Assembly: GCF_029395675.1 (NCBI RefSeq)
Contig: NZ_CP115184.1
Coordinates: forward strand, 2,852,001 to 2,916,000
Direction: 5' to 3'
DNA length: 64,000 bases
Source of the DNA: Janibacter cremeus
GTDB lineage: Bacteria; Actinomycetota; Actinomycetes; Actinomycetales; Dermatophilaceae
Below the pieces are notes generated by a model. That model worked only from the letters and a program-made list of their open reading frames with translations, was not told the origin of the DNA and made no database searches. Below, one piece after another: positions 25,757 through 37,545 of the stretch (its first letter is position 1; the number at the start of each line of letters is the position of its first letter). Position numbers and translations under genes: made by a program.

Positions 25757-26358
25757 CACCCGCCACGCGGGTCCTCGTCGCAGATGCCGACGAGCACCGT
25801 CGTGACGCCCTCGTCGCCGTGCTCGGTGCGGACCCGGACCTGGAGATGGTCGAGCCGGCTGCGACGGCCGCCGAGATCGCCGCGACCCCGCACGTGGACG
25901 TCATCGTGCTCGTCGGGGGGCTCGGCGCCGGCACCATCGAGGTGCTGTCCTCCACGCGGACACCCGATGCTCCCGCCTGGGTCTGCCTCGCCGAGGACGG
26001 CGTGCCCCCCGAGAGCGTCATCGCCGCGGGCGCGCGCGGCTGCCTCGTCATGTCGAGCACCCCGCTGCAGATCGGTGCCGCCATCCGTGCAGCCGCACGC
26101 GGCGAGCGCGCCGATCTGGACCACCCGGTGACCGGGCCCCTTGTCCAGCGCACCCCTCGAGCGACCCCGCCGCTGTCGCAGCGGGAGGTCGAGGTGCTGC
26201 GTCTGGTGGACGCGGGCCTGGGCAACAGGCAGGTGGCCGAGCGGCTCTACCTGAGCCTCTCGAGCGTGAAGTCACACCTGTCGCACACGTACGGCCGGCT
26301 CGGCGTGTCCGGGCGTGCCGCCGCGGCCGCCGAAGCGCGTCGTCAGGGGCTGATCTGA
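25753..26358 (+). CDS. LuxR-type DNA-binding response-regulator-like protein
   Basis: 201 residues if read from CTG 25753, 179 from GTG 25819. The upstream codons between purM and the GTG encode TRVLVADADEHRRDALVAV, which looks like the first strand and helix of a receiver domain; the GTG start would cut this off. No ATG, GTG or TTG lies in frame there, so CTG (as CTGA over the purM stop) is proposed. The receiver looks degenerate. The C-terminal LuxR helix-turn-helix is clear (LSQREVEVLRLVDAGLGNRQVAERLYLSLSSVKSHLSH). Target genes are unknown. Confidence 0.75.
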   Translation: MTPATRVLVADADEHRRDALVAVLGADPDLEMVEPAATAAEIAATPHVDVIVLVGGLGAGTIEVLSSTRTPDAPAWVCLAEDGVPPESVIAAGARGCLVMSSTPLQIGAAIRAAARGERADLDHPVTGPLVQRTPRATPPLSQREVEVLRLVDAGLGNRQVAERLYLSLSSVKSHLSHTYGRLGVSGRAAAAAEARRQGLI

Positions 26359-26832: not shown

Positions 26833-28611
26833 CTACTGCGCTCGGGAGACGTCGGCCGGTGCCTGCGCGGGGGAGACGAGCTCGCCCAGGGACTGCCGCA
26901 GATCGGGTGGCAGCGCCTCCATCGACCCGGAGAGCACGATCTGCGAGGGCGCGAGCCGCTCCAGGTGGTCACGTACGAGGTCGGGCAGGCGACCGGAGGT
27001 GATGAGCAGCACCGGGGTACCGGTGTGCCCGGAGGCGGCCGTGACGGTGAGCATCTCGAACGCGGAGGCGCCCGAGACGATGACCCGCCCGCCGGGCTCG
27101 ACGTCCTCCCACAGGGCGGCGGCCCTGGCCATCGGGCCTCCCTGCGCGGCGAACTCGACCTCCGCACCGGTGGCCTGCCGCAGGCGGTCGATGACGTCGG
27201 TCGGCCACTCCTCCTCGTAGCCGAGCAGGGCCAGTCGCCGTGGCTGCACGTCCGCGAGCGCGGCGGCGAGCTCGTCGCCCGGGCTCCCGGCGTCGCACAC
27301 GACCACCGCGCGACCGGTCCTGGCCGCCTGCAGCGAGGCCACGGGCGTGCCCCCGGAGTTGTCCGGGTGGGCCACGTACACGGTGGAGCTGTCCCTCGGG
27401 GGGAAGGCCCTCAGGAGCCGGGCGGCGGTCCGCGGCGGGTCGTCCTCGCCGAGCCTCTCGACCGTCCCGCTGACGAGCTCCTCGATGCGGCCGTACGTCT
27501 GCGAGCTCACCTGCTCCTCGCCGCCGACGACGATGACGCGCTCGGGGGCGAGGCGGCCGAGCTCGTCGCGAGTGGCCGCGGGGATGGCGCCCGGGCGCAC
27601 CCAGAGCATGGGCCGGCCGAGCTGGGCGGCGACCGGAGCCACCATCCGCGCCATGGACATGGACTGCACGCTGACGAGGAAGCACTCCCTGACACCGGGG
27701 GCCCAGGTGGCCCGGCTGATCTCCTGGGAGGTCTGGAAGCGTGTGGGGCCCGTCCAGCGAACCGTGCCGGGGACGTCCGGCTCGTCGGGGGCGTCGTCCT
27801 TGCGTGGCTTCTGCTTGGGCAGGGTCGCCTCGTAGGCGCGCAGGACGTCCTCCGTGGGGCCGTCCATGATCAGGCGGCCCTGGTCCATCCACAGGACCCG
27901 GTCGCAGATCTCGCGGATGTTGGAGTTGGAGTGGGAGACGAGGAAGACGGTGCCGGCCGCCTCCCTGATCGCCTCGATGCGCTCGGCGCTCTTCTGCCGG
28001 AAGGAGGCGTCGCCGGTGGCGAGGGCCTCGTCGATCATCAGCACGTCGGGAGCCGCCGCCGTGGAGATCGCGAACCGCAGCCGCGCACCCATACCGGAGG
28101 AGTAGGTGCTCATCGGCAGGTGCACGGCATCGCCGATCCCGGAGAACTCGACGATGTCGTCGAACTTCTCGTCGATCTCGGCGGTGCTCAGCCCGAGCGC
28201 CTGGCCGCCGACGTAGATGTTGCGTTCGCCACTGAGCTTGTTGATGAGCACGGCGTTGACGCCGAGCAGGGAGGGCTCGCCCGCGACCCAGACCTTGCCC
28301 TTGGCCGGTGGGATCAGGCCGGTCACGGCCCGCAGGAGGGTGGACTTGCCCGAGCCGTTGCGGCCGATGATCCCGATCGACTCACCATGGCGAGCGATGA
28401 AGCTGACGTCCTTGACGGCGCGGACCTCGCGGGTGCGTTCGCCCGTGCCCGGACGGAGCAGCCGGCGGAGGGAGCGCCCTTCGTCCTGTCGGCCGGGGGT
28501 CCCGCGGCGGTCGCCGCCGAGGACCTGGTAGGTCACGCTGAGGTGACTGACGATGACGGTGGGGGCCGCCTCCGGTGAGGCGTCGTCGACGGTGGGGTCG
28601 GGCTCAGCCAC
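26833..28611 (-). CDS. TagH/Wzt-like polysaccharide ABC exporter ATPase with CWB2-like C-terminal repeats
   Basis: 592 residues, twice the ATPase size. Residues ~15-265 form the nucleotide-binding domain: Walker A GRNGSGKST (83-91), signature YSSGMGARL (170-178), Walker B VLMIDE (190-195) and H-loop VSHSNS. Residues ~283-592 consist of three tandem modules that resemble cell-wall-binding repeat 2 (CWB2). Examples are RWTGPTRFQTSQEISR, then PMLWVRPGAIPAATRDELGRL and ERVIVVGGEEQVSS in module 1; RLALLGYEEEWP in module 2; and PVLLITSGRLP with QIVLSGSMEALP in module 3. CWB2 normally works outside the cell. By analogy with the Wzt C-terminal domain it may recognise the polymer to be exported. Its 5' end lies just downstream of the permease gene, overlapping it by 8 bp. 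Confidence 0.88.
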   Translation of the reverse strand: MAEPDPTVDDASPEAAPTVIVSHLSVTYQVLGGDRRGTPGRQDEGRSLRRLLRPGTGERTREVRAVKDVSFIARHGESIGIIGRNGSGKSTLLRAVTGLIPPAKGKVWVAGEPSLLGVNAVLINKLSGERNIYVGGQALGLSTAEIDEKFDDIVEFSGIGDAVHLPMSTYSSGMGARLRFAISTAAAPDVLMIDEALATGDASFRQKSAERIEAIREAAGTVFLVSHSNSNIREICDRVLWMDQGRLIMDGPTEDVLRAYEATLPKQKPRKDDAPDEPDVPGTVRWTGPTRFQTSQEISRATWAPGVRECFLVSVQSMSMARMVAPVAAQLGRPMLWVRPGAIPAATRDELGRLAPERVIVVGGEEQVSSQTYGRIEELVSGTVERLGEDDPPRTAARLLRAFPPRDSSTVYVAHPDNSGGTPVASLQAARTGRAVVVCDAGSPGDELAAALADVQPRRLALLGYEEEWPTDVIDRLRQATGAEVEFAAQGGPMARAAALWEDVEPGGRVIVSGASAFEMLTVTAASGHTGTPVLLITSGRLPDLVRDHLERLAPSQIVLSGSMEALPPDLRQSLGELVSPAQAPADVSRAQ

Positions 28612-29512
28612 GGCCGTACCTCATCTCCGCCTGCCAGAAGACGACCAGCCCCACGCCGGCGGCGCCGACGGCCCAGGCCGCCATGATGAGCCAGTCGGAG
28701 AGCACGACGGGCTCGCCGTTGAGCAGCGACTGCCGGCCGGTGGTGAGCATGAGGGCGAAGGGTTGCATCGTCAGCACCTCCTGCACGACCACGGGCGCTC
28801 CCTGCACGTAGTGCACGACGGGGAAGAAGACCCCGGAGACGTAGCGCAGCAGGCGCACGACGACCGGGATGAGGTTGGCGATGTCCTGCGAGGCGTTGAC
28901 CAAGCGGGCCGCGATGAAGGCGAAACCGACCAGTGCCAGACCCTGCATCGCGACCGCCACCGGGAAGAGCAGCCACTCCCAGTCGGGTCGCTCCCCGGTG
29001 GCGAACATCAGCACGAAGAGCAGCCCGAAGGCCGGGATCGAGGCCAGGAACTCGGTGAGGGTCACCGAGATCGGCAGCAGGGCCCGGGGGAAGTGCAGCG
29101 TGCGCACCAGGCTGATCTTGCCGGTGATCGCCTTCGCCCCGCGGGTGACGACCGAGGAGGTGAAGGCGAACATGACGACACCGATGCCGAGGAACCCGAC
29201 GAAGTTCTCGATGCCCCCTCGCGTCCCCAGCAGCAGGCCGAAGATCAGGTAGTAGCTCGCGATGAGCAGTGCCGGGTTGAGCACCGACCAGAGCTGACCG
29301 AGGTGGTTCGCCTCGTTCTTCGCGTACGACTCGGCCGACGAGAGCGTCCAGAGGAAGGAGCGGCGCTGCCACAGGTCGCTGACGTACCGGTGCAGCGGGG
29401 GGCGCTCGCTGAGCGCCCGCAGACCGTGACGGTCCGCCAGCTCCCGTGCCTCCTCGACGGTCGGCGCAGGGGGAAGGGAGGCCCGCCCGACTGCCTGGGC
29501 GACGTCAGCCAC
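28604..29512 (-). CDS. TagG/Wzm-like ABC-2 polysaccharide export permease
   Basis: 302 residues. After a cytosolic N-terminus (VSDLWQRRSFLWTLSSAES) come about six membrane helices, such as LIASYYLIFGLLLG, FLGIGVVMFAFTSS and a late LIMAAWAVGAAGVGLVVFW, as in ABC-2 exporters of teichoic acids and O-antigens. GTG 29510-29512 is chosen because GAAGGA lies at the right distance; longer in-frame starts would run through the divergent promoter. It overlaps the ATPase gene by 8 bp, so the pair is coupled. It sits head-to-head with the first glycerophosphotransferase fusion. Confidence 0.9.
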   Translation of the reverse strand: MADVAQAVGRASLPPAPTVEEARELADRHGLRALSERPPLHRYVSDLWQRRSFLWTLSSAESYAKNEANHLGQLWSVLNPALLIASYYLIFGLLLGTRGGIENFVGFLGIGVVMFAFTSSVVTRGAKAITGKISLVRTLHFPRALLPISVTLTEFLASIPAFGLLFVLMFATGERPDWEWLLFPVAVAMQGLALVGFAFIAARLVNASQDIANLIPVVVRLLRYVSGVFFPVVHYVQGAPVVVQEVLTMQPFALMLTTGRQSLLNGEPVVLSDWLIMAAWAVGAAGVGLVVFWQAEMRYGRG

Positions 29513-29615
29513 ACTTGGTCCTTCTCGTTGGTCGTACCCCGTGTGCACGGGGCGGTCGGGGCTCGCCCGGTGCCTGACGGGGATCATACCGACCGGTTCC
29601 ACCGGCACGGTGGAG

Positions 29616-29638
29616 CGAAGGGGGTGGCGCCCCCTTCG
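29616..29638. repeat. inverted CGAAGGGGG / CCCCCTTCG hairpin upstream of a promoter
   Basis: A perfect 9-bp inverted repeat (29616-29624 with 29630-29638, 5-nt loop) lies immediately before the ACCATAGACTGG promoter element, in the gap between the divergent exporter and fusion genes. It could be an operator or a terminator. Confidence 0.55.
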
Positions 29639-29642
29639 ACCA

Positions 29643-29648
29643 TAGACT
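29643..29648 (+). promoter_or_regulatory. -10-like TAGACT of the first glycerophosphotransferase fusion
   Basis: The string ACCATAGACTGG (29639-29650) is repeated exactly in front of tagD (37494-37505), which suggests co-regulation of the two genes. Confidence 0.5.
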
Positions 29649-29681
29649 GGTCCGCCGGACGGCCCGGGACGAAAGGTGGAC

Positions 29682-32222
29682 ATGGCGAAGCTGAGGAAGG
29701 CGGTGGCGACCCTGCGTCGCGCCCGCCGCATTCCCCGGGCGCAATGGGTGGCCCACTGGCGGTCCCGACCGATCGAGAGCGACACCGTCCTCTACGAGGC
29801 GACCTTCGGCGCCGGGCTGGTCGACAGCCCCTACGCGATCTTCCGTCACCTGGTCGACGCCCCGGACCTCGCGCACCTGCGCCACGTGTGGGTCGTGGCC
29901 GACGACGAGCGCCGCCGACGCGCCCGCGAGCACCTGGCCTCGCTCGGTCTGCACGAGCCGCGGGTCCGTGTCGTCGGTCACCGCACCCCCGGGTACTTCC
30001 GCCACCTGGCGACGGCGGCCTTCCTGGTCAACAACTCGACCTTCCCCGCGGAGTTCGGCAAGCGTGCGGGCCAGACCTACGTCAACACCTGGCACGGCAC
30101 GCCGCTGAAGGCGATGGGCTACGACATCCCCGGGGGCGCGCTGGGCGCGGCCAATGTCATCCGCAACTTCCTCGCGGCGGACCACCTGGTCTCCTCGGGG
30201 CCCTACATGACGGACACCATGTACCGGCGGGCCTACCGCCTGGACGGGATCGCGCCCGGGACGGTGCTCGAGGTCGGCGTGCCCCGCACCGACGTGCAGG
30301 TGGGTGTCACCGACGCGCGTCGTCGCGAGGTGCGCGAGCGCCTTGCTGCCGGCGGTGCGGCGGTGGACGGGACGCGACGCACGGTCCTCGTGGCGCCGAC
30401 CTGGCGGGGTGAGGCCTTCGCGGACCCGCGGCTCGATGCGGATGCCGTGGTGGGGCTGGTCACCGGCCTGCGGGAGGCGCTCGACGACGACTGGCAGGTC
30501 CTCGTCAAGGTGCACCCGGTGGTGCACGCGCAGGCGGGGGACCTCCCTTCGCTCCGGGGGGTGCTGGTGCCGGCGGACGTCCCGGCGAACGAGGTGCTCA
30601 CGATCACCGACCACCTGGTCACGGACTACTCGAGCATCCTCTTCGACGCGCTCGCCGACCCCGGCGTCCCGATCACCTTCCACGTGCCCGACCGGTCCGC
30701 GTACGCGACGGCGCGACCGCTGTACCTGCCGGCCGAGGAGCTGCCGGGGCGCGTGTGCGAGACCGTGGAGGCCACGGCCGCGGACGTGGCCGCGGGGGGA
30801 GCGCGCGCAGGGGTGCGCCACGAGTGGGCGGCGCGGTACGCCCCCTTCGCCGACGGCCGGGCCACCGAGCGGTTGGTGGACGTTGTCTGGCGGGGCCGGA
30901 CCCCCACGGTGGGTCGTTGCACGTCCCTGTCGGAGCGGATGCACGAGGGCGAGCGGGTCCCGCGGCTGCTCATCCACGGGGGATCCCTCCAGCGCAACGG
31001 CGTGACGTCGTCGCTCATCGCGCTCCTCGGGCACCTCGACCTGGACCGTCTCGACGTGTCCATCGCCTGGGGGCCGGCGCGCAGGGCCGACCCGCACGCG
31101 TTCGCGGAGTCGATCGACGACCGGATCCGGCTGCTTCCCCGGGTGGGAGGTCTCAACGGGCCGAAGCGGGTGGTGTGGTCGCGGCGCCTGCTCGAGCGGC
31201 TCGGTGCCGGCGGCCGGCTGGTGCCGATGCCCTCCCTCGTCCGCCTCCTGCAGGAGGAGTGGACGCGGTGCTTCGGCTCCGCGCAGTTCGACCACGTCAT
31301 CGACTTCGGTGGGTACTCGCCCTACTGGGCGCTCCTGATGTCGCGGGGGGTCGCGCCGGAGCCCGTGCGGTCCCACTCGATCTGGCTGCACAACGACCTG
31401 GCTGCGGAAGTGGCCAGCACCGCGGAGCACGGCAGGACGAGGGCGCACCACCTCGAGCAGGTGTTCAGCCTCTACGACCGCTACGACCGGCTGGTCTCGG
31501 TGTCCGAGCCGCTCTCCCGGGTCAACGGGCGGTCGCTGCGCAGGTACGCCGGCGGCGCGAGCTTCCGCAGCGCGCGCAACGTCATCGACGACTCGCGGGT
31601 GCGCTCGCTGGCACGCGTCCCCCTCGAGGAGATCGGTCTGGCCGAGGACGTGGTGGCCGCTCTGCGTGACGAGGGCACGGTGACCTTCGTGACGGCGGGC
31701 CGCCTGACCCACGAGAAGAACCAGGCGCGCCTCGTCCGGGCGGCAGCGGCCACGCGCGCCGCCGGGCACGACGTCACCGTGGTGATCATGGGGTCCGGGC
31801 CCCTCGCGGACGACCTCCGGGCGCTCACGGTCGAGCTGGGGCTGGAGCGGTCGGTCTTCCTGACGGGCCAGGTGGCCAACCCCTTCCCCGTCGTGGCGGC
31901 CGCGGACTACTTCGCCCTCACGAGCGAGCACGAGGGGCTGCCGATGGTCATCCTCGAGGCCCTGGCGCTGTCCACCCCGGTGCTGACCACGCAGTTCTCG
32001 TCCGTCGAGGGGGTCGTTCCCCCGGGGTGCGGCCTGGTGGTTGCGCGCGATGACGAGTCGGTCGCCCGTGCCATGATGGGGCTCGTCTCCGAGCGTCCTG
32101 GCTTCACGGCCCTGGATGTCGACGCCTACAACGCCACGGCTCTCGAGGAGTTCGCGGCAGCGGTCGGCCTCGGGGACGATCTGCGTACGCCAGCCATGCC
32201 CCGACCCACAGGACACACGTGA
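29682..32222 (+). CDS. bifunctional CDP-glycerol glycerophosphotransferase-like / GT4 glycosyltransferase
   Basis: 846 residues. Residues ~25-400 form a TagB/TagF-type polyol-phosphate transferase (PF04464 style) with NTWHGTPLKAMG (135-146) and VTDYSSILFD (313-322). Residues ~425-835 form a GT-B glycosyltransferase of family 4: IHGGSLQRNGVTSSL, GRLTHEKN (673-680) and SEHEGLPMVILEA (748-760). It could add a polyol phosphate and a sugar to a growing wall polymer. The ATG with AAAGG 5 nt upstream is preferred over a GTG two codons earlier. Its stop overlaps the start of the next gene (GTGA). It is paralogous to the protein at 33182-35776. Confidence 0.9.
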   Translation: MAKLRKAVATLRRARRIPRAQWVAHWRSRPIESDTVLYEATFGAGLVDSPYAIFRHLVDAPDLAHLRHVWVVADDERRRRAREHLASLGLHEPRVRVVGHRTPGYFRHLATAAFLVNNSTFPAEFGKRAGQTYVNTWHGTPLKAMGYDIPGGALGAANVIRNFLAADHLVSSGPYMTDTMYRRAYRLDGIAPGTVLEVGVPRTDVQVGVTDARRREVRERLAAGGAAVDGTRRTVLVAPTWRGEAFADPRLDADAVVGLVTGLREALDDDWQVLVKVHPVVHAQAGDLPSLRGVLVPADVPANEVLTITDHLVTDYSSILFDALADPGVPITFHVPDRSAYATARPLYLPAEELPGRVCETVEATAADVAAGGARAGVRHEWAARYAPFADGRATERLVDVVWRGRTPTVGRCTSLSERMHEGERVPRLLIHGGSLQRNGVTSSLIALLGHLDLDRLDVSIAWGPARRADPHAFAESIDDRIRLLPRVGGLNGPKRVVWSRRLLERLGAGGRLVPMPSLVRLLQEEWTRCFGSAQFDHVIDFGGYSPYWALLMSRGVAPEPVRSHSIWLHNDLAAEVASTAEHGRTRAHHLEQVFSLYDRYDRLVSVSEPLSRVNGRSLRRYAGGASFRSARNVIDDSRVRSLARVPLEEIGLAEDVVAALRDEGTVTFVTAGRLTHEKNQARLVRAAAATRAAGHDVTVVIMGSGPLADDLRALTVELGLERSVFLTGQVANPFPVVAAADYFALTSEHEGLPMVILEALALSTPVLTTQFSSVEGVVPPGCGLVVARDDESVARAMMGLVSERPGFTALDVDAYNATALEEFAAAVGLGDDLRTPAMPRPTGHT

Positions 32223-33037
32223 CCGAGCGAGACCCTCGAGCCGGACGCCCTTCGCTGGAGGAGCTGCGTGCGGTGGCGCAGCCGCCGTCGGTGGTCGGCC
32301 GACGCAACTCCGAGCACTGGGCGGGCACGCTCTACCTGCGGCGGATGTCCCTCCACTTCACCCGGCTGATCCTGCCGACGGGGATCTCGGCCAACGGCGT
32401 CACCTGGCTGATGATCCTCGTCGGCGTCATCGGCGCCGCCGTCCTGATGATCCCCTCGTGGTGGGCGGTCCTCGCCTGTGCGCTCCTCATGCAGTTCCAG
32501 ATCCTCATCGACTGCTCGGACGGTGAGGTCGCCCGCTGGCGCGGGACGTCATCCCCGATGGGCGTCTACCTCGACCGGGTGGGCCACTACGTCACGGAGG
32601 CGGCCCTGCCCATCGCGCTCGGTGTCCACGTCGACGGTGGTCCCGGCTCCATCGGCGGGTGGACCACGATCGGCGCGCTCACCGCGTGCGTGGTCCTGCT
32701 CAAGAAGTCCTTCGGCGACATCGTGCACGTCGCCCGCCACTACGCCGGCCTGCCGAAGGGGGACGAGGACGCCCAGGTCGCGGCCTCCCGCTCCGCCGGG
32801 CTGCGGTCCGCGCGCAGCCTGCTGCGGTTCTTCCCCTTCTTCCGCGCGTTCGTCGCGATCGAGTTCTCCCTCATCACGCTCGCCGCGGCGACCCTCGGTC
32901 TGCTCCTGTCGGCCACGGGCGTCGTGGGCGAGGGCGTCGTCCTGCGGTGGTGGCTGCTCCTCTCGCTGCCCCTGGCCCTGGCCACGGCCGGTGGCTTCCT
33001 GCTGATGATCGTCACCTCGCGTCGCTTCGACGGCTGA
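32219..33037 (+). CDS. CDP-alcohol phosphotransferase family membrane protein, variant active site
   Basis: 272 residues with about six membrane helices. The CDP-alcohol motif is nearly complete: Asp98, Asp101-Gly102, Ala105-Arg106, Gly115 and Asp119, but the last conserved aspartate is His123 (LDRVGHY). In known enzymes that residue helps activate the acceptor hydroxyl, so chemistry or acceptor may differ. Family members join CDP-linked lipids or polyols to an alcohol. Placed between two polyol-phosphate transferase fusions and coupled to the first by GTGA, it may prime or modify the surface polymer rather than make a bulk phospholipid. Confidence 0.87.
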   Translation: MTERDPRAGRPSLEELRAVAQPPSVVGRRNSEHWAGTLYLRRMSLHFTRLILPTGISANGVTWLMILVGVIGAAVLMIPSWWAVLACALLMQFQILIDCSDGEVARWRGTSSPMGVYLDRVGHYVTEAALPIALGVHVDGGPGSIGGWTTIGALTACVVLLKKSFGDIVHVARHYAGLPKGDEDAQVAASRSAGLRSARSLLRFFPFFRAFVAIEFSLITLAAATLGLLLSATGVVGEGVVLRWWLLLSLPLALATAGGFLLMIVTSRRFDG

Positions 33038-33134: not shown

Positions 33135-33181
33135 AAAACATCTTCGGCCCGGACGGGTCGTCGGACTGTAGGAGGATGGAA

Positions 33182-35776
33182 TTGCGCGTTGTCGACGCCG
33201 TGAAGACCCTGAAGAGCGCCCGCCGCGTCGGGTCGCAGGAGTGGCGCGCCTACTGGCACGAGCGCCCCCTGGACGACAACAGCGTCTTCTACGAGTCCTT
33301 CGCCGGCAACGGAGTGCTGTGCAACCCGGAGGCGGTCTTCCGGGCGCTGGTCGACGACCCCGAGTTCGCCCACCTGACGCACGTCTGGTCGTTGTCGCCG
33401 CAGATGTGGACCTCGGGGATCCGGGCAGAGTTCGCGCAGCACCCGCGGGTGCGCTTCGTGCGGTACAAGTCGCCCCAGTACTACCGGGCCCTGTCCACGT
33501 CCCGGTACCTGTTCAACAACGCGACCTTCCCTCCGGAATTCATCAAGCGCGACGGTCAGGTCTACGTCAACACCTGGCACGGAACCCCGTTCAAGACGAT
33601 GGGATACGACGAGCCGGGAGGCGGCCCGAACGCCCGCAACGTCATCCGCAACTTCCTCTCCGCCGACTACCTGCTCGCAGCGAACCGATTCATGGCCGAG
33701 CGGATGTACGAGGAGGCCTATCGGCTGACCAACATCCACCCCGGACGGATCATCACCGAGGGCTCGCCGCGCGTGGACCGGCAGTTCCTGGACGAGGCGG
33801 GCCGTGACCGGGTGCGTGGCCGGCTCACGGCGGCCGGTGTCGCGCTCGGTGATGACCAGAAGGTCGTGCTCTACGCCCCGACGTGGCGTGGGGAGTCCTT
33901 CCAGCAGCCGGCCAATGACGTCGTGCTGCTCGCGAAGCGGGTCCGCGAGCTCAAGCGCCAGCTTCCGTCGGAGCAGCAGGTGCTGCTACGGGTGCACCAG
34001 CAGGTGTACACCTTCGCGCTCGAGCACCCGGAGCTGTCCGACATCCTCGTCCCGAACGAGATCCCGAGCAACGAGGTGCTCGGGATCACCGACGTGCTCG
34101 TGACCGACTACTCCAGCATCTTCTTCGACTTCCTCGCCACGGGACGGCCCATCGTCTTCTTCGCGCCGGACATGAGCGCCTACGACGGATACCGCGGCCT
34201 CTACCTCGACACCAAGCACCTGCCCGGACCACTCGTGCGGACGGCCGGCCAGCTCGCACGGGTCCTCGTGGCCGATGGGTCCGGCGCGGAGGACGACCCG
34301 GCGGTCAGCCACCGCGATGCCTATGACGCCGCCCGCGAACGCTTCGCCTCCCGGGAGGACGGCCGGGCCTGCGAGCGGATCATCGATGTCGTGCTCCGAG
34401 GCAGCACGCGCGACCACGACGTCCGTCCCGTGCGGTCTGACGGACGCACCCGGGTGCTGATGTACCTCGGTGGCATGCGCTCCAACGGCATCACGACCTC
34501 GGCGCTGAACCTGCTGAACAACATCGACCACGATCGCTACGACGTCTCCGTGTTCTACCAGTACTCCGGGTCGGACGAGATACGGGCCAACGAGGCCAGG
34601 ATCCATCCACGGGTGCGCGTCCTCCCGCGCATCGGGGCGATGCTGTGGTCACTGCGGACCGAGGGCCAGCGGACGAAGGCGCTCCAGGGCGGCGAGCGCG
34701 TCCGTGAGGAGTCCCTCGATCAGGCGGAGCGCATGTTCGCGCACGAGTGGCGGCGGTGCTTCGGGCTGGCGGAGTTCGACCACATCGTCGACTTCAGTGG
34801 CTACGCCGCCTTCTGGGCCCTGCTGCTGCGCCAGGGGGCGGCGCAGAGCCACTCGATCTGGCTGCACAACGACCTCAAGGCCGACCAGATGCGGGAGGTG
34901 GACGGTCGCCGACCCCACGAGGCGAACCTCGGGTCGGTGTTCAACGCCTATGCCGGCTACGACCACCTCGTCTCGGTCTCCTCGGCACTGATGGAGATCA
35001 ACCGGGCGAACCTCGCGGAGGCCGCGCCGGCCGAGAAGCACACCTTCGCCCGCAACACCATCGATGCCGGCTACATCTCCCGGATGGCCTACGGCGAGCG
35101 GAACGAGGCCGGTGAGGAGCCCACGGCGGCGACGGTGCCGGCCGGCGACCTCTCCTTCGCTGTCCGGACGCTCGCGGACGTGCACGGACTGGACCCGCTC
35201 GAGGCCGCCGTGGAGCGCCACCGCACGGTCAGTGAGGTGATCCCGCCTGCGGACGGGGTGCGCACGTTCGTCACGGTCGGTCGGCTGTCGCCGGAGAAGA
35301 ACCACGAGCGCCTCATCCGCGCCTTCGCCCTCGTCCACCAGGACAACCCGGCCACCCGACTGGTCATCATCGGCGGGGGGCCCCTCGAGGGCTACCTCGT
35401 CGAGGTGGTGCGTGACCTGGGGCTGAGCGACGCCGTGACCATCGCCGGTCAGCGGAGCAACCCGCACGTCGTGCTGTCGAAGGCGGACGTCTTCGTCCTC
35501 TCCAGCGACTACGAGGGCCAGCCGATGGTGATCCTCGAGGCACGGGTGCTCGGACTGCCGGTGGTTGCGACGAAGTTCGACTCGGTCGGTGGCGCGCTGC
35601 CCGAGGGCGTCGGGCTCGTCGTGGAGCGTGACGAGGTGGCCCTGGCCGAAGGCATGCGGGCCGCCCTGCTCGGCGAGGTGCCGAACCCGGCGTTCGACGC
35701 AGCCGCATACAACGCGGAGGCGACGGAGGACTTCTACCGGGTGCTCGGGTCGGCGCCGGTCTCCCGCGAGGCCTGA
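33182..35776 (+). CDS. second bifunctional glycerophosphotransferase-like / GT4 fusion
   Basis: 864 residues, the same two-domain plan as the protein at 29682-32222. It has NTWHGTPFKTMG, VTDYSSIFFD, then MRSNGITTSALNLL, VGRLSPEKNHERLIRAF and SSDYEGQPMVILEA in the GT4 half. Start: GGAGG at 33171-33175 directly touches an ATG at 33176, which is too close, but is 6 nt from TTG 33182. TTG also gives an N-terminus matching the paralog (RVVDAVKTL versus KLRKAVATL), so TTG is chosen. The inserted region between the two domains differs most between the paralogs, suggesting different substrates. Confidence 0.9.
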   Translation: MRVVDAVKTLKSARRVGSQEWRAYWHERPLDDNSVFYESFAGNGVLCNPEAVFRALVDDPEFAHLTHVWSLSPQMWTSGIRAEFAQHPRVRFVRYKSPQYYRALSTSRYLFNNATFPPEFIKRDGQVYVNTWHGTPFKTMGYDEPGGGPNARNVIRNFLSADYLLAANRFMAERMYEEAYRLTNIHPGRIITEGSPRVDRQFLDEAGRDRVRGRLTAAGVALGDDQKVVLYAPTWRGESFQQPANDVVLLAKRVRELKRQLPSEQQVLLRVHQQVYTFALEHPELSDILVPNEIPSNEVLGITDVLVTDYSSIFFDFLATGRPIVFFAPDMSAYDGYRGLYLDTKHLPGPLVRTAGQLARVLVADGSGAEDDPAVSHRDAYDAARERFASREDGRACERIIDVVLRGSTRDHDVRPVRSDGRTRVLMYLGGMRSNGITTSALNLLNNIDHDRYDVSVFYQYSGSDEIRANEARIHPRVRVLPRIGAMLWSLRTEGQRTKALQGGERVREESLDQAERMFAHEWRRCFGLAEFDHIVDFSGYAAFWALLLRQGAAQSHSIWLHNDLKADQMREVDGRRPHEANLGSVFNAYAGYDHLVSVSSALMEINRANLAEAAPAEKHTFARNTIDAGYISRMAYGERNEAGEEPTAATVPAGDLSFAVRTLADVHGLDPLEAAVERHRTVSEVIPPADGVRTFVTVGRLSPEKNHERLIRAFALVHQDNPATRLVIIGGGPLEGYLVEVVRDLGLSDAVTIAGQRSNPHVVLSKADVFVLSSDYEGQPMVILEARVLGLPVVATKFDSVGGALPEGVGLVVERDEVALAEGMRAALLGEVPNPAFDAAAYNAEATEDFYRVLGSAPVSREA

Positions 35777-35810: not shown

Positions 35811-36440
35811 TCACCCCTCGTACCCGAACCTCGCGTAGTCCTCGCCGTACATGTCGTGCACGAGGTCACGCATCCCCGGCGTGACCTCGACGTCCTTGCT
35901 GGCGTACTTCGTCGTGGAGCTGCCCTCGCGCACCCGCGGAAGCTGCTCCGGGAGTCCGAGGTCCCACTTCTTGTTCAGGGCGGCCGCCATCTGGTCCAGG
36001 CCGTCCTCGAAGCGGAAGACCTCAGCGCGGTCGACCAGGAAGTCGACCTGCGGTCGCAGGTGGTTGTCGAAGAGGAAGGGATCCTTCGCGTACCGGGCGA
36101 AGGAGCCGGCGGTCCACTTCTCGACCGACCGGCCGTCGATGGAGAACTCGGCCGTGCGGTGCCGCCACAGGTACTCGGACTTGATGCGCGCCATCGGGTC
36201 CCGCACGACCGTGAAGACACCGTCGAACCGCTCGATCCGGAAGAGCGCCTCCAGCATCTCGCGGTGCATGTGCTGGGGCGTGCACCGGCGGATGTCGTTC
36301 CATGACCTGCGGCCGACCCGGCCGTCGCGGTAGAGCGTGTCCCACCCGGCATCGGCAAAGGCCCGCTCGATGCTGGAGCCACCTGTCTTGGGGATGTGGA
36401 TGAAGAGGAACTTGCGTTCGCCCTGACGGAATACAGGCAT
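35811..36440 (-). CDS. sulfotransferase family protein
   Basis: 209 residues. The PAPS 5'-phosphosulfate loop is FIHIPKTGGSSIERAF (PKTGGSS at 17-23), and the 3'-phosphate site is VVRDPMARIKSEYLWR. This is the Sulfotransfer_2-like pattern used on carbohydrates. The chosen ATG has AAGGG upstream; a -10-like TATAGT is at 36507-36512 (complement). It converges on the second fusion gene. In this locus it may sulfate the surface polymer. Confidence 0.85.
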   Translation of the reverse strand: MPVFRQGERKFLFIHIPKTGGSSIERAFADAGWDTLYRDGRVGRRSWNDIRRCTPQHMHREMLEALFRIERFDGVFTVVRDPMARIKSEYLWRHRTAEFSIDGRSVEKWTAGSFARYAKDPFLFDNHLRPQVDFLVDRAEVFRFEDGLDQMAAALNKKWDLGLPEQLPRVREGSSTTKYASKDVEVTPGMRDLVHDMYGEDYARFGYEG

Positions 36441-36506
36441 GGAGACCCTTCGGTAGTGGTGCGGTCGCCGGGCCTTCCGGCCGACGGCCGCTCGACGGTT
36501 ATCGGG

Positions 36507-36512
36507 ACTATA
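36507..36512 (-). promoter_or_regulatory. -10-like TATAGT upstream of the sulfotransferase
   Basis: TATAGT on the minus strand, about 67 bp before the ATG. No convincing -35 is seen. Confidence 0.4.
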
Positions 36513-36541
36513 TCGACACGACGTGCCGGTGCGGGTGGGGC

Positions 36542-37411
36542 TCAGAGGACGGGCGGGTGCCCGAGACGGGTGAGCGTCCAGACCGTCCTCCAGCGCATCG
36601 GGTCTCGTCCTCCGGGGCTCGTGCTCAGCCCTTCGCGGAAGCCCGCGAACCAGAAGCGCAGGTTGGTGGGCTGGCGCCAGGTGCGGGCGACCGTGATGGC
36701 TGCCCACGTTGCGACGTAGACCAGGGCCAGTGGCCACGGCAGGTTGCGGCGTGCGACCCACACGCGGTTGCGGGCGTTGAGCCGCCAGAAGAGGGCGTGC
36801 CGGGTGGCTTCGGTGGCCGGGTGGTGGATGAGCACGGACGGGTCGTACGTGAGCTCCCAGTCGTGGTCACGCAGGCGCCAGGCCAGCTCGATGCCCTCGT
36901 GCCCGAAGAAGAAGTTCCCGGGGAAGCCGCCCACCTCCTCGTACGCCGACCGCCTGAGCGCCACGACCCCTTCGCAGACGGAGAACGCGGGGCTGCCGAC
37001 GGTCGGGTCGCCGACGTGGGCGCGGGGGACCCAGCGCCGCAGGGTGACGCCCTCGGTGTCGGCGACCCGGGCGTGCACCAGGCCCAGCCGCTGCTCGGCG
37101 CGAAAGCGCGCCACGGTGTGCGCCAGGGCGGTGGTGTCGGGGAGCCAGGCGTCGTTGTCGAGGAAGAAGATGAACTCCGACGTGCCGTGCGCGACGCCGA
37201 TGTTGCGCCCCTCGGCGGGGCCGACGTTCTCCGGGAGGTGGACGGTGCGGACGTCGTCGGGGAACCCCACGGGATCCCAGCCGTTGCCGACCAGGATCGT
37301 GGTGACGTCCACGCCGGTCTGTGCCCGGGCCGACTCCAGGGCACGCAGCGTCTCGTCGCGACGGTCGCCCTGGCTGAGGACGACGACGTCGACGGACGGG
37401 TGCGGGGCCAT
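36542..37411 (-). CDS. GT2 glycosyltransferase, rhamnosyltransferase-like
   Basis: 289 residues. A GT-A fold: VDVVVLSQGDRRDETLRAL, NVGPAEGRNIGVAHG and the DxD-type metal site FFLDNDAWLP. The acceptor region has FFFGHEGIELAWRLRDHDW, the EDxELxxRL-like motif of rhamnosyl- and related transferases. C-terminal helices with aromatic residues suggest membrane association. ATG with GAGGAG upstream. It is divergent from tagD. The donor sugar is not deducible. Confidence 0.9.
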   Translation of the reverse strand: MAPHPSVDVVVLSQGDRRDETLRALESARAQTGVDVTTILVGNGWDPVGFPDDVRTVHLPENVGPAEGRNIGVAHGTSEFIFFLDNDAWLPDTTALAHTVARFRAEQRLGLVHARVADTEGVTLRRWVPRAHVGDPTVGSPAFSVCEGVVALRRSAYEEVGGFPGNFFFGHEGIELAWRLRDHDWELTYDPSVLIHHPATEATRHALFWRLNARNRVWVARRNLPWPLALVYVATWAAITVARTWRQPTNLRFWFAGFREGLSTSPGGRDPMRWRTVWTLTRLGHPPVL

Positions 37412-37497
37412 GGGGGCTCCTCTCGGGGGATCGACCTTCGACCCTACTGTGAACTCGCCCCCTCGGCCGCGTCCCGCGCCAGGATGCCGAGGAACCA

Positions 37498-37503
37498 TAG
37501 ACT
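37498..37503 (+). promoter_or_regulatory. tagD: -10-like TAGACT of tagD
   Basis: Lies within ACCATAGACTGG, the same 12-mer as in front of the first fusion gene; 42 bp before the tagD ATG. Confidence 0.5.
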
Positions 37504-37545
37504 GGGCGACTGCCAGCCCCGAGCGCCCGAGCGAGGTACCCACCC

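Follow-up and report, generated by a model that had tools for sequence, protein, structure and literature searches.

The carbohydrate-binding domain (CBD) of Wzt is the best studied case of an ABC exporter checking its polymer before export, and the CWB2 module usually grips wall polymers on the exterior of the cell. The Wzt CBD, a jelly roll fused after the ATPase, recognizes a terminal cap; capped O antigen depends on it for export, and the domain also works when supplied in trans (PMC9445017). PSII, an anionic polymer, is bound by the CWB2 repeats of SlpA and Cwp2, and a gene for a predicted CDP-glycerol glycerophosphotransferase lies in the locus proposed for PSII (PMC4973711). According to the same source, anchoring in C. 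difficile needs three CWB2 repeats, and replacement of the PILL motif of Cwp66 in even one repeat abolishes it.

The window analyzed here, a 64,000-nucleotide stretch of Janibacter cremeus (contig NZ_CP115184.1, positions 2,852,001 to 2,916,000), encodes an exporter ATPase that ends in a CWB2 trimer (Table 1). Like Wzt with a CBD, it is a type-V exporter ATPase followed in the same chain by an additional soluble domain, but here that domain is a CWB2 alpha/beta trimer and not a jelly roll, and the gene lies in an actinobacterial wall locus. The wall teichoic acid exporters TagGH and TarGH are similar in both ATPase and permease, and the locus contains TarF-like glycerophosphotransferases; unlike them, the J. 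cremeus ATPase falls short of the TagH equivalog cut-offs and carries the added tail. With the C. difficile surface proteins Cwp6, Cwp8, and SlpA, the tail shares its fold, its three tandem modules, and, in the first and third of these, a PxLL-like motif, but it is fused to an ATPase, no hydrophobic membrane segment was seen, and the motif table shows none in module 2. Whereas CWB2 proteins are classed as extracytoplasmic and wall-anchored, the J. cremeus protein is predicted from hydropathy to be neither. We found no mention of this fusion in the open-access literature searched.

Domain organization and exporter locus

An earlier note on this DNA had described a TagH/Wzt-like ATPase followed by three tandem CWB2-like modules that would face inward, and the domain assignments were borne out. 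Besides the ABC_tran match, a PDB search gave TagH, TarH, and Wzt as the closest solved ATPases. By its NCBIfam and PDB matches, the ATPase is of the polysaccharide-exporter type; its scores against the two NCBIfam TagH equivalogs, 170.4 bits (cut-off 538) and 169.2 bits (cut-off 320), reach neither cut-off. The profile search of the tail that the note had proposed gave a significant PF04122 match in module 1, above the curated cut-off (36.7 against 24.9 bits).

In an AlphaFold model, the tail consists of three tandem modules in a pseudo-threefold trimer, with strands alternating with helices. A fold comparison, also proposed in the note, returned the CWB2 fold, and the top matches for the tail were all C. 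difficile surface proteins. The model was built on an alignment of 10 sequences and is confident for the tail fold, with low confidence in the ATPase half; a run on the tail alone with no alignment (mean pLDDT 44.4) was left out of the evidence. The modeled alpha/beta trimer and the fold matches rule out a Wzt-type beta-sandwich, and the PF04122 score, the genus-wide occurrence, and the fold match rule out chance or artefact. The net charges of modules 1, 2, and 3 are +2, -4, and -6, which sum to -8.

Hydropathy averaged over 19 residues peaks at 1.32, and the protein is hydrophilic both at its N-terminus and in the linker that joins the tail to the ATPase. With no hydrophobic membrane segment seen, the tail is predicted from hydropathy to be cytosolic; as a prediction, the inward orientation claimed earlier is right.

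Table 1. The fused exporter and its neighbors, in coordinates of the window
Feature	Position	Strand	Basis
ABC exporter ATPase with C-terminal CWB2 trimer, 592 aa	26833..28611	-	profile matches, model, fold match
TagH/TarH/Wzt-type nucleotide-binding domain, residues 1-265	27817..28611	-	ABC_tran 66-197; TagH and TarH are best PDB matches
CWB2 module 1, residues 283-378	27478..27765	-	PF04122 285-372, 36.7 bits; model
CWB2 module 2, degenerate, without PILL-like motif, residues 379-482	27166..27477	-	model, fold match, motif table
CWB2 module 3, residues 483-580	26872..27165	-	model and fold match; PF04122 scores module 3 in relatives, e.g. L069, L070
ABC-2 permease ORF, TarG-like	28604..29785	-	ABC2_membrane; best PDB matches TarG 6jbh_C (1.9e-13), 9cfp_A (1.6e-14)
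Glycerophosphotransferase (PF04464) with GT4	29676..32222	+	TarF is best NCBIfam match, under equivalog cut-off
CDP-alcohol phosphatidyltransferase family protein	32219..33037	+	PF01066
Second glycerophosphotransferase (PF04464) with GT4	33176..35776	+	TarF is best NCBIfam match, under cut-off
Sulfotransferase family protein	35811..36761	-	PF03567
GT2 glycosyltransferase	36542..37543	-	PF00535

The permease and ATPase ORFs overlap by 8 bases in an operon-like arrangement, both on the minus strand. From its gene content, the exporter locus of J. cremeus reads as teichoic-acid-like.

PF04464 and GT4 are joined in each of the two large proteins flanking the CDP-alcohol phosphatidyltransferase gene, possibly as a bifunctional polymerase and decorating enzyme. 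A sulfotransferase family gene (35811-36761) lies inside the polymer locus, and the wall polymer could be sulfated. Near the exporter, on the opposite strand, a 179-aa ORF at 25819-26358, though short, has a match to LuxR-type response regulators that covers most of it.

Distribution and origin of the fusion

A survey of other actinobacteria, as the note had suggested, found the fusion in both the Dermatophilaceae and the Coriobacteriia. Matches spanning the ATPase and the tail occur in 26 of 186 Dermatophilaceae genomes: all 16 from Janibacter, where the matches are open and full-length, and 10 from four other genera. One more genome (G112, row L072), in which the match is ended by a contig boundary, was left out of the fused count. 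The named records with the same fusion are Janibacter (L021-L029). Among the matches listed in an order-level survey of 396 genomes, the full-span rows are all from Dermatophilaceae; in a phylum-level survey, also of 396 genomes, three from outside the family match well into the tail (G901, G611, and G831). The Coriobacteriia (197 genomes) have a match at 1e-60 in 109 and a full-span match in 17. Each of these 17 tails was recognized as CWB2 by a local HMM (rows L113-L132, duplicates included; E values from 7.6e-26 to 7.2e-8), and a Pfam scan agreed for both of the Coriobacteriia tails scanned.

Other kinds of tail exist as well. The exporter ATPases L044, L037, and L038 have tails of 424, 231, and 205 residues with no match to the local CWB2 HMM.

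A phylogenetic tree of 116 ATPase domains contained the fused proteins in two far-apart parts. The best tree forcing them together was 253.6 log-likelihood units worse (p-AU 2e-101), and we reject one fused clade on this tree, in which distant rows are long-branched, the contig-cut L072 was scored as unfused, and many losses or transfers would still be accommodated. Within the Dermatophilaceae, a few unfused rows are interspersed with the fused proteins or adjoin them, which allows for losses of the tail, or for its repeated gain, in that family.

We also placed 54 CWB2 trimers on a quickly built tree: 24 tails came from the 26 fused Dermatophilaceae and 13 from the 17 fused Coriobacteriia, and the other 17 trimers belong to surface proteins of L146-L153 with three local module matches each. 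The Dermatophilaceae tails grouped with Dermatophilaceae surface CWB2 proteins and the Coriobacteriia tails with those of G901 (SH-aLRT 97), a result weakened by the difference in composition between the two classes. The simplest reading of these sequences would be separate capture of local CWB2 proteins in the two classes. Two Coriobacteriia, G1051 and G1058, have an unfused exporter with CWB2 genes about 5 kb away, illustrating a possible route to fusion.

Polymer genes beside fused and unfused exporters

In 24 of the 26 fused Dermatophilaceae, an anionic-polymer gene lies within 4 kb of the exporter, either a PF04464 glycerophosphotransferase (9) or a UDP-sugar dehydrogenase (15). As for the remaining two, the nearest dehydrogenase on the same contig is about 23 kb away in G035, and the polymer genes of G015 are on other contigs. 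A neighbor of either kind suggests an anionic product. A UDP-sugar dehydrogenase is also found within 4 kb at all 10 unfused Dermatophilaceae loci examined; fused exporters thus share the link to anionic-polymer genes with unfused ones, which export with no tail, and we dropped these genes as tail-specific evidence. The glycerophosphotransferase was likewise dropped as a constant partner, given that just 8 of the 16 Janibacter genomes have any PF04464 match.

The tail is kept in both settings, the Janibacter clade of J. cremeus having glycerophosphotransferases in place of the dehydrogenase. Together with the dehydrogenase beside tail-less exporters, this indicates that export does not require the tail. 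The dehydrogenase at every unfused locus examined suggests that the ancestral exporter probably moved a uronate-containing polymer and did so without a tail. The tail would then have been retained as the J. cremeus clade gained glycerophosphotransferases at the locus, an ordering that we infer. As an add-on, it may read a part shared by the polymers, such as the linkage unit, or it may have re-specialized.

Retention next to different polymer genes could also be caused by a scaffolding role, in which the tail pairs two ATPases or docks cytosolic polymer-making enzymes at the exporter and binds no polymer. The absence of the wall-anchoring motif from module 2 fits such a role, as does the tiling of CWB2 trimers in the C. 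difficile S-layer (PMC8881574). Enzyme docking, however, would be expected to track the enzymes, and these change; the tail-less Dermatophilaceae relatives also do without any such scaffold. We consider this explanation unlikely.

Sequence evolution of the tail

Two residues, R285 and P334, never vary among the 26 aligned fusions; G288, R291, and P533 are at least 90% conserved. These residues map to the start of module 1 and, in modules 1 and 3, to the proline of the PxLL-like motif. The mean frequency of the top residue is 0.52-0.58 in the modules versus 0.86 in the ATPase. The dN/dS values of the tail in five orthologue pairs were 0.26, 0.40, 0.35, 0.62, and 0.48, and those of the ATPase were 0.11-0.19. 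Being above the ATPase values but below 1, they point to fast yet constrained evolution, as expected of a specificity domain.

The same pattern would be compatible with a regulatory tail that responds to a small cytosolic ligand, for example a precursor in nucleotide-activated form, by adjusting the ATPase, and extra domains on ATPases are often regulatory, as in MalK (PMC11466899). CWB2 has neither a known ligand pocket nor known small-molecule binding, however, and the top fold matches of the tail lead to surface proteins, so that we regard a sensory role as improbable.

Relationship to surface CWB2 proteins

The one-contig genome of J. cremeus has a sole PF04122 match, the fused exporter gene. 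No PF04122 match outside the exporter was found in 16 of the 17 fused Coriobacteriia, at a search sensitivity that missed several of their own tails. The same search gave no match, exporter tails included, in 8 of 14 fused Coriobacteriia and none in 8 of 16 Janibacter; since the exporter tails themselves were missed, the absence of another CWB2 gene means that none was detected at that sensitivity. The exception among the fused Coriobacteriia is G901, with nine matches about 16-20 kb from the exporter. Because the tail is kept where no other PF04122 match was found, surface anchoring does not explain it there.

Of 16 fused Dermatophilaceae genomes, 7 encode a surface CWB2 protein at a distance of 0.6-8 kb from the exporter, five of the seven being from one genus; none of 10 unfused genomes does. 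This count used stretches of more than 8 kb and left out both L026 (6 kb) and L161, which is cut by a contig end. Elsewhere in their genomes, the unfused L158-L160 and L162-L165, seven in all, carry 8-31 PF04122 matches.

The difference in neighborhood and the CWB2 genes of G901, which begin about 16 kb from its exporter, could reflect a tail that couples polymer export to the surface CWB2 proteins of neighboring genes. Such coupling seems to us highly doubtful, given the lack of detected partners in J. cremeus and nearly all fused Coriobacteriia and the nearby CWB2 genes of the unfused exporters in G1051 and G1058.

Janibacter anophelis (G012; L152/L027), with 6-7 PF04122 matches, is a Janibacter member with surface CWB2 genes. 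One of its genes (L152:3999-5591), 6.6 kb from the fused exporter, encodes a canonical three-module surface CWB2 protein. In one Dermatophilaceae genus (L146, L149, and L150), genes for surface CWB2 proteins that carry amidase or SpoIID domains lie within a few kb of the fused exporter, an arrangement like that in Bacillus subtilis, where lytB and lytC are close to the tag genes.

That the tail is a passenger left over from an accidental fusion is very improbable: the modules are weakly conserved, module 2 is degenerate, and tail-less relatives are placed near the fused clade, but the matches are open and full-length throughout Janibacter, dN/dS is below 1 in all five pairs, an intact fold is confidently predicted, and a second fused clade exists.

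Proposed function

From the domain make-up, predicted fold, gene context, and distribution, all obtained by computation, we propose that the ATPase and permease form a two-gene ABC exporter for a lipid-linked anionic wall polymer, which is probably teichoic-acid-like in J. cremeus. The CWB2 trimer, predicted to be cytosolic, would bind the exported polymer, or its end or linkage unit, and suitable chains so bound would be brought to the channel or certified for it. The part of the Wzt jelly-roll CBD would be played by a fold unrelated to it and acquired from a surface CWB2 protein.

Recognition is supported by the CWB2 fold and sequence, the overlap with a TarG-like permease gene, the two TarF-like neighbors, the retention in 16 of 16 Janibacter, the fused clades of two classes with tails nearer to local surface CWB2 proteins, and the dN/dS pattern. 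Counting against a simple recognition model are the missing motif in module 2, although every PILL is needed in Cwp66, and the net charge of -8, which does not suggest an anion binder, though net charge does not judge charge patches. Export selectivity, as put forward in the earlier note, is the best fit to the locus, the separate fusions, and the evolution of the tail; it sits less well with the tail-less exporters at the same kind of locus and with the occurrence of the tail in both polymer-gene settings. Weighing these, we hold a cytosolic polymer-recognition tail, equivalent in role to the Wzt CBD, to be somewhat better than an even prospect.

A broader and more tentative proposal, to which we give slightly less than an even chance, is that CWB2 trimers serve generally as readers of anionic wall polymers, and that exporters in two actinobacterial classes separately captured one from a neighboring gene for a surface protein as a cytosolic export checkpoint, convergent in function with the Wzt CBD and in some lineages outliving the surface CWB2 proteins. 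If this is true, a second, unrelated domain at the same place would make cytosolic checking a recurring design, extended to the wall polymers of monoderm bacteria, and the fused tail would be a soluble domain for asking what a CWB2 trimer recognizes.
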